From Halalkalicoccus sp. CGA53 (GTDB lineage: Archaea > Halobacteriota > Halobacteria > Halobacteriales > Halalkalicoccaceae): a stretch of DNA of 64,000 nucleotides. Every line of letters starts with the position of its first letter. Within the stretch, counting starts at the first letter, position 1. This document shows positions 6,712-40,374 of this stretch, one piece after another. The position numbers and the translations under genes are program-made. The notes under the pieces are model-generated. The model was not told the origin of the DNA and ran no database searches. It was given only the letters and a program-made list of their open reading frames with translations. The DNA lies in contig NZ_CP144125.1 of the NCBI RefSeq assembly GCF_036429475.1, forward strand, positions 1,798,001-1,862,000. Direction: 5' to 3'.

Positions 6712-7245
6712 ATGGTCCAATGCGAGATGTGCGGCGCGGACACGCAGTCTCCGACGACCGTGAAGATCGAGGGCGCAGAGCTCGACGTCTGTAGCGAGTG
6801 TACGGACTTCGGGACGGAGGTGCGTCAGGCGTCCTCGAGTTCGGCGACGTCGAAGTACTCGACGTCGTCGGAGTCGGGGACCGCGTCTGGGTCGTCGTCC
6901 TCATCGACCGGGAGCGGCCAGGCGGGGGGCTCCACGCGCCGACGGCGCGACATGTTCGACGAGATGGAGGAGCTCGCGGCGGACTACGACCAGCGGATCA
7001 GGGAGGCGCGCGAGTCGCGCTCGCTCAGCCAGGAAGAGCTCGCGAAACAGCTCAACGAGAAGGCGAGCCTGATCCGCAAACTCGAACGCGGTGACATGCT
7101 CCCGAGCGACGAGGTCCAGCGGAAACTCGAACGCTCGCTCGAGATCTCGCTCGTCGAGGGCGGCTCGAGCGAGGAGACCGAGTGGGAGGGCGGCTCCTCC
7201 ACCGGGAGCTACACGCTGGGCGACGTCGTCACCCGAAAGGACTGA
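6712..7245 (+). CDS. multiprotein-bridging-factor 1-like transcription factor
   Basis: 177 residues. An N-terminal zinc ribbon has cysteines at 4, 7, 27 and 30 (CEMC and CSEC). A serine/threonine-rich linker (about 38-75) follows, then an XRE-type helix-turn-helix (about 85-140: RESRSLSQEELAKQLNEKAS and LERGDMLPSDE). A low-complexity tail ends the protein. This is the architecture of archaeal MBF1, which links TBP to regulators or binds the ribosome. It is a monocistronic unit with its own TATA box. Confidence 0.88.
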   Translation: MVQCEMCGADTQSPTTVKIEGAELDVCSECTDFGTEVRQASSSSATSKYSTSSESGTASGSSSSSTGSGQAGGSTRRRRDMFDEMEELAADYDQRIREARESRSLSQEELAKQLNEKASLIRKLERGDMLPSDEVQRKLERSLEISLVEGGSSEETEWEGGSSTGSYTLGDVVTRKD

Positions 7246-36977: not shown

Positions 36978-37247
36978 ATGGCATCAACACGACCGACGAC
37001 ATCGAGTCTGGCCGAAGTCCTCGACCGAATCCTCGACAAGGGCTGCGTGATCGACATCTGGGCGCGCGTCTCGCTCGTCGGGATCGAGATCCTCACCGTG
37101 GAGGCGCGGATCGTCATCGCCTCCGTCGACACGTTCCTGCACTACGCGGAGAACATATCGAAGATAGAACAGGCGGAGGAGGAAGGCGACATCGAGGAGC
37201 TCGAGGAGCTCGAGATCGAAGCCACCGCCTCGGGCTCGGCCGAGTAA
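36978..37247 (+). CDS. gvpA: major gas vesicle structural protein GvpA
   Basis: 89 residues. The shell-forming core is almost unmistakable: [40 protein letters not shown] and [19 protein letters not shown]. It polymerises into the gas-permeable, water-excluding wall. Compared with the roughly 76-residue proteins of model haloarchaea, the C-terminal tail is longer and very acidic ([20 protein letters not shown]). It is followed by gvpO after 19 bases. Confidence 0.96.
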
Positions 37248-37266: not shown

Positions 37267-37752
37267 ATGGCAGAAACGGCCGACCAGTCGCAGTGTCGAG
37301 CGCTCACCGGGAGCGGCGACCGGTGTACGCGCGAGGCCATCGACGACGACGGCTTCTGTTACCAGCACGGCCCGGACGACGAGACGGTCGAGGGGGAGTC
37401 AGACGACGGTGAGACCACCGAACACGACGACGGAGGAGACCAACACGTGAGCGAAGATTCGAACGACTGTGACGTAGGAGAGAGCGACCTGGGGCGGGTC
37501 CGAAACAAGGTCGGCGCCGTCGCCGAGAAGCTGATCGGCAGACCGCTCGTGAGCGTCGTGAGCGTCGAACGCGTCGGCGACGAGGAGGAGGAGAACTGGC
37601 TCGCGGCCGTCGAGGTCATCGAGCGAAGCGCCATCCCCGACACCCAGGACATCATCGGTCGCTACGAGATCACGCTCGACGACCCGGAGACGATCACCGG
37701 CTACCGCCGGACGCATCGCTACCGTCGCGGCGACATGGAACAGGACATCTGA
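37267..37752 (+). CDS. gvpO: gas vesicle protein GvpO with an N-terminal Cys/His knuckle
   Basis: 161 residues. The C-terminal about 95 residues are the GvpO domain (VAEKLIGRPLVSVVSVERVG, NWLAAVEVIERSAIPDTQDI, IGRYEITLDDPETITGYRRT). The first 40 residues hold QCRALTGSGDRCTREAIDD and FCYQH: Cys10, Cys20, Cys31 and His34, a likely zinc knuckle. An acidic linker joins the two. GvpO is needed for vesicle formation. gvpA and gvpO are adjacent, with no gvpC or gvpN between them. Confidence 0.9.
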   Translation: MAETADQSQCRALTGSGDRCTREAIDDDGFCYQHGPDDETVEGESDDGETTEHDDGGDQHVSEDSNDCDVGESDLGRVRNKVGAVAEKLIGRPLVSVVSVERVGDEEEENWLAAVEVIERSAIPDTQDIIGRYEITLDDPETITGYRRTHRYRRGDMEQDI

Positions 37753-37794: not shown

Positions 37795-38907
37795 CTACTC
37801 CAGGTCGAGCGCCGACGCCAGCTCCTCGGCCATCTCCTCGTGGGCCAGGTTCGCCTTCACGCCCTCCTCCTTCGCGAGCGACTGGAGCTCTCGGTAGGAG
37901 AGCTCCTCTAACTCCTCGATCGACTCCGGACGGTCGTCTTCGTCCTCCTCGCTCTCGTCGTCTTCTCCCTCGTCGCCCGTCTCTTCTTCGTCTTCGTCCT
38001 CTCCGTCGGACTCCTCCTCACCCTCGGGTTCCTCCGTCTCTTCGTCCTCTGACTCGTCTCCCTCGTCGTCTCCGTTCTCCTCGTCCTCCTCGTCGCCGTC
38101 TTCGGTTCCGTCACTCTCTTCTTCTTCCTCGGTCTCGTCCTGTTCCTCCTCTCCTTCGGATGAATCCTCGAGATCCACATCCTCTTCGTCCTCGTCTTCT
38201 TCGTCCTCGTCTTCTTCGTCCTCGTCTTCTTCGTCCTCTTCGCCCTCATCCGCGTCTTCCTCGTCTTCGTCTTCTTTCTCTTTCCCGTCTTCGTCCTCTG
38301 ACTCGTCCGAGTCGTCCTCTTCGTCGTCAGGTGATTCCCCTTCCTCCTCTGCTTCTTCCTCCTCTCCTGTCTCCTCGGCGTCCGACTCGTCGCCGGCGAG
38401 CCCCTCTTTGATAGCCCGACCGATCTGGTTGCCGAGAGAGTCCCCGCTCTCGCTCTCTTCGTCGCTGTCATCCGCGTCGTCGTCCTCTCCGTCCGCTTCT
38501 TCATCCTCGTCCGTCTCGTCGTCGCTCTCTTCCTCGTCCGTTTCTTCCTCCTCGTCTTCGCCTTCGCTTTCCTCGTCGTCGTCTTCGCTTTCCTCGTCGT
38601 CGTCTTTGCTTTCCTCGTCTTCGTCTTCGTCGCCCGTCTCTCCCTCTTCTTCCTCGTCTTCGTCTTCCTCCTCCTCATCCTCACTGAGGGCGTCTCTGAC
38701 GGCCTCCTCGATCTGCCGGGCGAGCATCTCGCCGAGACGGCGGCCGACGAACGCCCCGATCGCGCCACCGACCATCTCGGCGGTCGACCCCTCATCGGAC
38801 GTGTCGAACTCCCCCTCCAGCGGCGTGTCCTCGAGCAACTCCTCGTGGTCGATGTTCTCTAGCAGTGCGTCGGTGTCGGTATCGTCCGAATCGGGTGTGT
38901 CGCTCAT
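37795..38907 (-). CDS. 370-residue acidic low-complexity protein with SAP/Rho-N-like C-terminus
   Basis: The N-terminus (1-75) has two short helices and a glycine-rich amphipathic helix, VGGAIGAFVGRRLGEMLARQ followed by IEEAVRDAL. It is nearly identical to the next gene. Then follow about 240 residues of Asp/Glu/Ser, broken by SLGNQIGRAIKEGLAG near 155-170. The last 45 residues (SIEELEELSYRELQSLAKEE, GVKANLAHEEMAEELASALD) resemble a SAP or Rho-N-type helix-extended-helix nucleic-acid-binding domain. Function is unknown. It faces gvpO, with 42 bases between the stops. It is the last gene of the leftward acidic trio. Confidence 0.7.
   Translation of the reverse strand: MSDTPDSDDTDTDALLENIDHEELLEDTPLEGEFDTSDEGSTAEMVGGAIGAFVGRRLGEMLARQIEEAVRDALSEDEEEEDEDEEEEGETGDEDEDEESKDDDEESEDDDEESEGEDEEEETDEEESDDETDEDEEADGEDDDADDSDEESESGDSLGNQIGRAIKEGLAGDESDAEETGEEEEAEEEGESPDDEEDDSDESEDEDGKEKEDEDEEDADEGEEDEEDEDEEDEDEEDEDEEDVDLEDSSEGEEEQDETEEEEESDGTEDGDEEDEENGDDEGDESEDEETEEPEGEEESDGEDEDEEETGDEGEDDESEEDEDDRPESIEELEELSYRELQSLAKEEGVKANLAHEEMAEELASALDLE
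38654..38763. repeat. 110-bp duplicated block, copy 1
   Basis: Identical base for base to 39096-39205 (offset 442). It encodes the glycine-rich helix and start of the acid tract shared by the two neighbouring proteins. Exact identity over 110 bases, including third codon positions, indicates recent duplication or gene conversion. Confidence 0.85.
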
Positions 38908-38935
38908 GATTCAGTAAGTGGACGGGTAGCGCGCG

Positions 38936-39349
38936 CTACTCCTCCGAGGAGTCGTCTTCGTCGGCTTCCTCGCCCTCGCCGGCGTCCCCGTCCTCCGCTT
39001 CGTCCTCGACTTCGCTTTCCTCGTCCTCGTATTCGTCTTCTTCTTCGTCTTCGCTTTCCTCGTCGCCCGTCTCCCCCTCTTCTTCGTCGTCTTCGTCGTC
39101 TTCGTCTTCCTCCTCCTCATCCTCACTGAGGGCGTCTCTGACGGCCTCCTCGATCTGCCGGGCGAGCATCTCGCCGAGACGGCGGCCGACGAACGCCCCG
39201 ATCGCACCACCGATCTCCTCTGCGACCGACCCCTCACCCGAGGTATCGATCTCCCCTTCGAGCTGGGTTCCTTCGAACAGTTCGTCGTAGTCGACGCTCT
39301 CAAGCAGTTTTTCGGTGTCCATACTTTCGACGAGTGATGTGTCGCTCAT
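38936..39349 (-). CDS. 137-residue acidic paralogue of the 370-residue protein
   Basis: The N-terminal 80 residues align without gaps to the neighbouring protein: MSDTSLVESMDTEKLLESVD, then VAEEIGGAIGAFVGRRLGEM and LARQIEEAVRDALSEDEEEE. The rest is Asp/Glu/Ser low complexity. It lacks the SAP-like C-terminal domain. It lies 28 bases upstream of its paralogue on the same strand, probably in one transcript. The hydrophobic helix is short for a membrane span but could dock onto a surface such as the vesicle wall. Confidence 0.7.
   Translation of the reverse strand: MSDTSLVESMDTEKLLESVDYDELFEGTQLEGEIDTSGEGSVAEEIGGAIGAFVGRRLGEMLARQIEEAVRDALSEDEEEEDEDDEDDEEEGETGDEESEDEEEDEYEDEESEVEDEAEDGDAGEGEEADEDDSSEE
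39096..39205. repeat. 110-bp duplicated block, copy 2
   Basis: Second copy of the block at 38654-38763, same orientation, inside the 137-residue gene. Confidence 0.85.
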
Positions 39350-39374
39350 GATATGTGTGAAAACGTCCGATTAG

Positions 39375-40151
39375 TTACGCTGCCGCCTCGCCGTCGTCGC
39401 CGTCGCCGTTCTCTCCGTCTTCGTCCCCGCTGTCGAGGAGCTGACTCACCAGCGCCTGGATGAACTGCGTGAGCAGATCCTCGAGCGGCAGTTCCTCCAC
39501 GACGCTTCCGAGGAAGTTGCGGAGTCGCTCAGCGATCGCGCTCGCGAACGACCGGATCCGCTCGCCGAGGTCCAGATCGGGGAACTCCGGAAGACCGGGG
39601 AGGCCGATGCCCTCTCCGTCCTCGTCCTCGCCCCCGCCGCCGAGCAGCCCGTTATCGCCGAGCAGGTCGTCGATCCCGAGCAGACCTCCCAGGTCCAAGC
39701 CGCCGTCGAGCAGACCGGTTACCGAACAGAGGAGGTTCCCGAGCAGGTTGTTGGGCCCCGGCACCGCCGAGATGTCGAGGGTGACCGTGTCCAGATCGAC
39801 CTCCAGACCGAGGAGATCGAGGAAGAGCCCATCGAGGTTGAGAAAGAGCACCGGACAGCGCTCTTCCTCGTCGTCTTCGTCTTCTTCCTCGTCGTCTTCG
39901 TCTTCTTCCTCGTCGTCTTCGTCTTCTTCCTCGTCGTCTTCGTCTTCTTCCTCGTCGTCTTCGTCTTCTTCCTCGTCGTCTTCGTCTTCTTCCTCGTCGT
40001 CTTCTTCCTCCTCTTCGTCGTCTTCGTCTTCGTCTTCTTCGTCCTCTTCGTCCTCATCGAGTTCGTCCTCCCCACCGTCGGTCAGCAGGACGCGGACGGC
40101 GGCTGGCTGCTCGTCGCTGTCGTCGCGGTCGCTGCCGTAGGTACGATCCAT
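39375..40151 (-). CDS. acidic-repeat protein with a conserved LLGNLLC-type domain
   Basis: 258 residues from the ATG at 40151; an in-frame ATG at 40166 adds five. A TATA-like run (40176-40183) lies 25-32 bases before 40151. After an Asp/Glu tract with six perfect EEDEDDE heptads comes LNLDGLFLDLLGLEVDLDTV, then ISAVPGPNNLLGNLLCSVTG and LLDGGLDLGGLLG. I recognise this as a motif recurring in uncharacterised bacterial and haloarchaeal proteins. A helical region (RIRSFASAIAERLRNFLGSV) and an acidic tail follow. Function is unknown. It leads the leftward acidic trio. Confidence 0.68.
   Translation of the reverse strand: MDRTYGSDRDDSDEQPAAVRVLLTDGGEDELDEDEEDEEDEDEDDEEEEEDDEEEDEDDEEEDEDDEEEDEDDEEEDEDDEEEDEDDEEEDEDDEEERCPVLFLNLDGLFLDLLGLEVDLDTVTLDISAVPGPNNLLGNLLCSVTGLLDGGLDLGGLLGIDDLLGDNGLLGGGGEDEDGEGIGLPGLPEFPDLDLGERIRSFASAIAERLRNFLGSVVEELPLEDLLTQFIQALVSQLLDSGDEDGENGDGDDGEAAA
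39866..39991. repeat. six perfect 21-bp tandem repeats
   Basis: The unit cctcgtcgtcttcgtcttctt is repeated six times without change (on the reverse strand each unit encodes seven Asp/Glu residues), followed by a partial unit. Period and phase keep the reading frame, so repeat number can vary without breaking the gene. Confidence 0.92.
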
Positions 40152-40374
40152 ACGGGAGACATCCATCCCTCGGAGAATAAAAAGGGGCCACGCACCTGCG
40201 AGAGCGGTGATACGGGGTACCGGGACGACTGATGTAGGGTCTCGGGAGAGCTGTCACGCCACCGAAACACAGAGCAACTCGGGGTCTGACCGAGACGTCA
40301 CTGGGGGCGTGCTCACCGCCGCGGCGAACGGAAGGTCCCGGCCGACCCCGATGGGACGGTCCGGGGAGATGCGA

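Follow-up and report, generated by a model that had tools for sequence, protein, structure and literature searches.

The window, the whole 64,000-nucleotide stretch of DNA that was analysed, contains a gas-vesicle (gvp) cluster with three acidic genes, here P1, P2 and P3, beside it, which raises the question of what role these genes have in the gas-vesicle system. The cluster has gvpA (36978-37247, + strand), a halophile-type gvpO (37267-37752, +) and a gvpF-G-H-I-J-K-L-M operon (36874-32713, -) of the type without gvpC and gvpDE. The gvpI gene (35497-34610, -) encodes a long acidic protein of 295 aa, with the C-terminal motif STMP/STVP...IYGxRF that is also present in the annotated 144-aa Halobacterium GvpI. 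Two more gvpA-like genes lie outside the cluster (G000:C2:2575204-2575320, L091, and G000:C2:2123314-2123430, L092), one of them near a GvpI-like gene.

The three genes run consecutively on the minus strand with 25 and 28 bases between them, as originally predicted. P1 (40151-39375, -) encodes 258 aa, P2 (39349-38936, -) encodes 137 aa with a net charge of -61, and P3 (38907-37795, -) encodes 370 aa with a net charge of -201. An upstream ATG at 40166 would give a P1 of 263 aa. The second ATG, the predicted start at 40151, is the better choice, since homologue N-termini align there and a TATA-like element, TTTTTATT (40183-40176, -), is centred ~28 nt upstream of it. This element was read by eye, and a sigma-70 promoter scan is inapplicable to archaea. 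A leaderless start of P1 at 40151 is plausible. P1-P3 match no Pfam or NCBIfam model above cut-off, including every curated Gvp model, in agreement with the prediction that they have no known Gvp similarity; matches to Baculo_PEP_C and similar Pfam models were discounted as coiled-coil or composition effects. Homologues of the set in Halocatena salina are annotated only as 'hypothetical protein', no open-access paper naming P1-P3 was found, and a query of plasmids with P0001 gave no match with the low-complexity filter applied. The prediction of a three-gene module is correct in that the genes exist, but it overlooked a fourth linked gene, P0 (40707-40375, -), which is upstream of P1 in the same direction. 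P0 encodes 110 aa with a coiled coil and a zinc-ribbon-like CxxC...CxxC arrangement.

P1 consists of a poly-acidic tract, a conserved domain of ~50 aa (VLFLNLDGLFLDLLGLEVDL..NLLGNLLC), which is the LLGNLLC-type domain that had been predicted, and predicted amphipathic C-terminal helices. The acidic tract is encoded by a 21-base tandem repeat (39862-40043 of the window, 8.7 copies, 95% match); therefore, its length may differ among strains by slippage. The domain is shared with LLGNLLC-type secreted haloarchaeal proteins, including a paralogue in the same genome (L090 9741-10463, with a Tat-like signal) that is 61% identical to P1 over 51 aa. In contrast to the secreted paralogue, P1 has no match to the Tat-signal model. 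It has the N-terminal acidic tract where the paralogue has its signal, and the amphipathic helices in addition, and the P1 type is confined to gvp+ genomes. The AlphaFold prediction for P1 is poor (pLDDT 56) and did not suffice for a fold search. In some relatives P1 and a P2 paralogue have acquired Ig-like/CarboxypepD_reg domains, and P1 has also acquired long amphipathic repeats.

P2 is made up of an N-terminal 'DTEKLLESVDYDELFEGTQLE' segment, a glycine-zipper amphipathic helix and an acidic tail. P3 begins with a P2-type segment and helix (42-75 in the AlphaFold model), and the two N-termini are 74% identical over 76 aa, which bears out the glycine-rich amphipathic helix predicted to be common to two of the genes. 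The maximal hydrophobic moment of the helix is 0.77, a value equalled by 0.02% of shuffles, and the Gly-zipper model PF13488 gives an E of 0.012-0.013 (15.8-15.9 bits, under the cut-off of 25). The middle of P3 is a ~235-residue acidic linker, predicted to be disordered with low AlphaFold confidence, and the C-terminus (326-370) is predicted as a three-helix domain with a pLDDT of 93-94. Structural matches to this tail are mostly SAP and Rho N-terminal domains, with a Foldseek probability of 0.94 but an E of 0.9; against a Rho structure the VIA Z is 5.0 with an rmsd of 1.4 over 42 residues. Low structural scores are expected because the domain has only ~45 residues. There is no SAP (PF02037) or Rho_N (PF07498) sequence match to the P3 tail above the Pfam cut-off; sub-threshold Rho_N matches occur in 7 of 12 P3-tail members (best 2e-4), and SAP reaches 0.0017 in one homologue. 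The SAP/Rho-N-like C-terminus of the original prediction is thus tentatively supported by AlphaFold and the structural matches, with sequence matches below Pfam cut-offs. The P3 tail is borne by an acidic disordered linker and not by a nucleic-acid enzyme. Ribosomal protein uS3 of Halorutilus and of Euryarchaeota MAGs likewise bears a P3-type tail on an acidic linker, as does an Hsp20-like protein in Halorutilus (the fusions are L112 6536-7132, L130 with the uS3 gene ending at 7147, L107, L113 and L120).

The distribution of the set was determined in 194 haloarchaeal genomes (requested completeness at least 90%), 84 of which have gvpA. Only the conserved non-acidic parts (~53, 75 and 46 aa) were used as probes, with cut-offs of E < 1e-15 for the P1 domain and E < 1e-12 for the P3 tail. 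The gas-vesicle-type P1 domain is present in 63 genomes, all of them gvpA+, and in 0 of 110 genomes without gvpA. The P2/P3 helix is present in 57 genomes, again all gvpA+, and the P3 tail is found in 64 genomes, 62 of them with gvpA. Fisher tests give 3e-33 for P1 and 2e-29 for the P3 tail, ignoring shared ancestry; they were computed with N=195 against a true 194, which makes no material difference. Counted by genus, all 27 genera with P1 are gvp+ (p 3e-11, without full correction for phylogeny). A first set of 59 genomes, this one included, had the P2 helix in 14 (E < 1e-3), all 14 gvpA+; a match in G035 (E 0.008) was left out of this count. G035 (genus g25) and G152 (genus g9) are cases of joint absence within a genus, with neither gvpA nor the set. 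The two genomes with a P3 tail and no gvpA are G018 and G020, and the tail matches in G018, which by coordinates corresponds to Halorutilus salinus, are the ends of the ribosomal S3 and Hsp20-like proteins.

These counts bear on the simplest explanation, that P1-P3 are ordinary acidic low-complexity proteins which lie beside gvp genes by accident. Acidic tracts are common in haloarchaea, and Tat-type secreted paralogues such as L090 share the LLGNLLC domain, which would fit such an explanation. However, the strict co-occurrence with gvpA was obtained from the conserved non-acidic parts by themselves, and an accidental neighbourhood is therefore very improbable. The tie of P1-P2-P3 to the gvp system is very likely functional and not due to chance. 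P1 and the P2/P3 helix are confined to genomes with gvp genes, where they occur as a set, either in the gvp cluster or in a separate operon.

The original prediction proposed a check for co-occurrence with gvpA and named homologues widespread in genomes without gvp genes and away from gvp clusters as speaking against it. For P1 and the P2/P3 helix no homologues were seen in gvp-less genomes, but positions away from gvp clusters were, in an unexpected form. Among 40 genomes with usable coordinates the set is within 10 kb of gvpA in 14 and unlinked in 26; in most families it stands apart from the gvp cluster, and even there it is restricted to gvp+ genomes. The genes were also predicted to face gvpAO, which is true in this genus. 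The sister genus (g2) has gvpA-gvpO-P0-P1-P2/P3 in this order, in one direction throughout; the window has a block of this type in inverted orientation, so that the set faces gvpAO, an arrangement particular to this genus. P0 is found in 8 of the 194 genomes, comprising this family (Halalkalicoccaceae) and G061 of another family, and in relatives it lies between gvpO and P1. The gvp cluster of G061 groups with the clusters of this family in a GvpF+GvpL tree; together with its P0 this is what a transfer of the entire island would produce. In genomes of family f6, in Halocatena and in a Halobacteriales MAG, gvpH and gvpI are separated by P1 and a related helix protein. In Natrialbaceae and Halomarina, P1-P2-P3 and a GvpI-like gene form a conserved separate operon, seen at nearly 40 named loci.

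In Natrialbaceae a strongly conserved element, approximately GTCGCAYACGCAAGGNMAA..NCCACAACG, precedes the P1 start codon by ~35-65 nt. It is present as one copy each in 29 of the 37 Natrialbaceae loci of L114-L153 (for example L126 4612-4623 and L132 4660-4671), and its core was not found in gvp loci or in this window. It is a candidate for a site regulating the separate module operon. Two candidates for a promoter motif common to the module and gvp genes were rejected: CGCAYACGCAAG, upstream of P1 in Natrialbaceae, is missing from gvp loci, and CCACAAC turned out to be where the gvpA coding region begins.

The place beside gvpO had been described as one where gvpC or gvpN might be expected. 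For gvpN this description is not supported. A gvpN-type AAA ATPase (315 bits) is encoded ~190 kb from the gvp cluster at G000:C2:2026688-2027455, gvpN is likewise detached from the gvp cluster in the sister genus, and gvpN and the module coexist in Natrialbaceae. For gvpC the distribution supports it, at the level of about one clade. The GvpC repeat PF05465 is absent from P1-P3 and from the whole genome, while the Halobacterium GvpC control gave 7 repeats with the same library. Eight gvpA+ genomes have strong GvpC repeats, and the set is in 0 of these 8 and in 62 of the 76 other gvpA+ genomes. Among the mapped clusters gvpDE never occurs without gvpC. The clusters without gvpC, the module-associated ones among them, also have no gvpDE and encode a long acidic GvpI, whereas the GvpC clusters mostly have a short one. 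In the midpoint-rooted GvpF+GvpL tree the GvpC+ clusters form one clade, the gvpC-less clusters lie elsewhere, and genomes with neither GvpC nor the set are scattered. Since the GvpC+ clusters are one clade, the exclusion between GvpC and the set amounts to about one independent contrast and could reflect inheritance instead of replacement. G032 combines the two: besides the set it has a second gvp cluster, which encodes a divergent GvpC.

The divergent GvpC of G032 (L077 16554-17576, -, phmmer E 6e-6) has a C-terminal tail that looks SAP-like by eye in place of the usual MucR-type finger. The tail is suggestive but was not taken as proof of a P3-type domain: the P3-tail model gives an E of ~0.5-1, 1 of ~1770 scored shuffles was as high, and Pfam finds no SAP or Rho_N in L077. 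It is possible, with these weak statistics, that L077 is a bridge between GvpC and P3.

The set resembles haloarchaeal GvpC in its tie to the gvp system, in its strongly negative net charge and in being found where GvpC is not. The profile of Halobacterium GvpC runs from helical repeats through an acidic segment to a small C-terminal domain. P3 has a similar layout of amphipathic helix, acidic spacer and small folded domain; the likeness to GvpC, with its Halo_GVPC repeats (PF05465) and MucR-type C-terminal finger, is one of layout and not of homology. P3 has a single glycine-zipper helix and none of the 32-33 aa PF05465 repeats, its end is SAP/Rho-N-like instead of a zinc finger, three or four genes take the place of one, and no sequence homology was detected. 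Because the set is confined to gvp+ genomes, and mostly to those where GvpC is missing, it may well do GvpC's job. The overall reading of P1-P2-P3 as accessory proteins that fill the place of GvpC, in a gas-vesicle system whose clusters have neither GvpC nor GvpDE, has about an even chance of being right, and a GvpC-like coat or shape role, drawn from this distribution and the layout of P3, comes close to an even chance as well.

The joint absence of gvpC and gvpDE from the module-associated clusters would also fit a regulatory set that replaces GvpD/GvpE and not GvpC, with P0 and P3 binding nucleic acid or the transcription machinery and controlling gvp expression. The zinc-ribbon-like make-up of P0 and the best structural matches of the P3 tail, SAP and Rho-N folds that bind nucleic acids, are consistent with such a role. 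The extreme acidity of P2 and P3 argues against it, and most genomes with the module have no P0. No DNA-binding feature is present in P1, and the Ig-like domains and long amphipathic repeats of some relatives look structural. The tail alone does not imply DNA binding, since in Halorutilus it is also carried by ribosomal protein S3 and the Hsp20-like protein. A regulatory role is quite unlikely.

Some of the gene orders suggest a link to assembly. GvpI controls length and shape; a GvpI-like gene is the fourth and last of the Natrialbaceae operon, and P1 and the helix protein adjoin gvpI in other families, including their position between gvpH and gvpI in the f6 genomes. P1-P3 could thus be a chaperone-like scaffold similar to GvpH/GvpI, in which acidic proteins keep GvpA or GvpI soluble while the vesicle grows and are not part of the finished shell. 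P1-P3 differ from GvpI in having no C-terminal STMP/STVP motif. The GvpF-M assembly genes are complete without the set, and 13 gvpA+ genomes have neither the set nor GvpC, which indicates that the set is dispensable. A scaffold role is rather unlikely.

If the set takes over from GvpC as a layer that governs surface, shape or spacing, P1, P2 and P3 would each use their amphipathic helices to lie on the GvpA shell or be anchored in it. Their long, disordered acidic stretches would make up a negatively charged corona that tolerates salt, and P3 might dock assembly proteins through its SAP/Rho-N-like end, comparable to the small C-terminal domain of GvpC. The C-terminal portion of GvpC binds GvpF, H, I, L, N and O (PMC9501494).

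Clusters without gvpC and gvpDE have been reviewed for Natrialba, Natrinema, Halopiger, Haladaptatus and Natronobacterium, species of which are called Vac- (PMC4390858). The table of a later review is in conflict with this and lists gvpACNO for some of those species (PMC9501494). The N. magadii genome paper, in its account of the cluster, agrees with the earlier review that gvpC is missing; the gvp clusters of Natrialba magadii and Haloterrigena turkmenica have one extra gene (Nmag_0337, Htur_2371) and an N-terminally extended GvpI (PMC3403918). By this account they are of the same type as the module-associated clusters, without gvpC, without gvpDE and with a long GvpI, and the account makes no mention of the P1-P2-P3 operon.

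The Vac- record is the main uncertainty over what the gvpC-less clusters build. It is possible, but doubtful, that there is a second haloarchaeal gvp lineage (without GvpC, without GvpDE, with a long acidic GvpI) in which P1-P2-P3 make up the outer layer around a GvpA compartment unlike ordinary flotation vesicles in its shape, its size, its cargo or the conditions under which it forms. If true, such a compartment would account for the Vac- records of species with these clusters. The set bears in any case on the puzzle of Natrialba, Natrinema, Haladaptatus and others, which have gvpC-less gvp genes and no recorded vesicles (PMC4390858). As accessory proteins P1-P3 would add three unnamed members to the gas-vesicle parts list, or five counting P0 and the GvpI-like gene, and would provide a concrete candidate for the GvpC stand-in in most haloarchaeal gvp clusters. 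Those who develop gas vesicles as ultrasound reporters could also find a polyanionic coat protein of interest.

Some gvp clusters without the full set (L102 8238-8855 on a Haladaptatus halobius plasmid and the related L166, L169 and L171) have another hypothetical protein with a glycine-rich helix beside an extra gvpO. In L102 this protein ends in an 'LSDKDLQTLA' tail.
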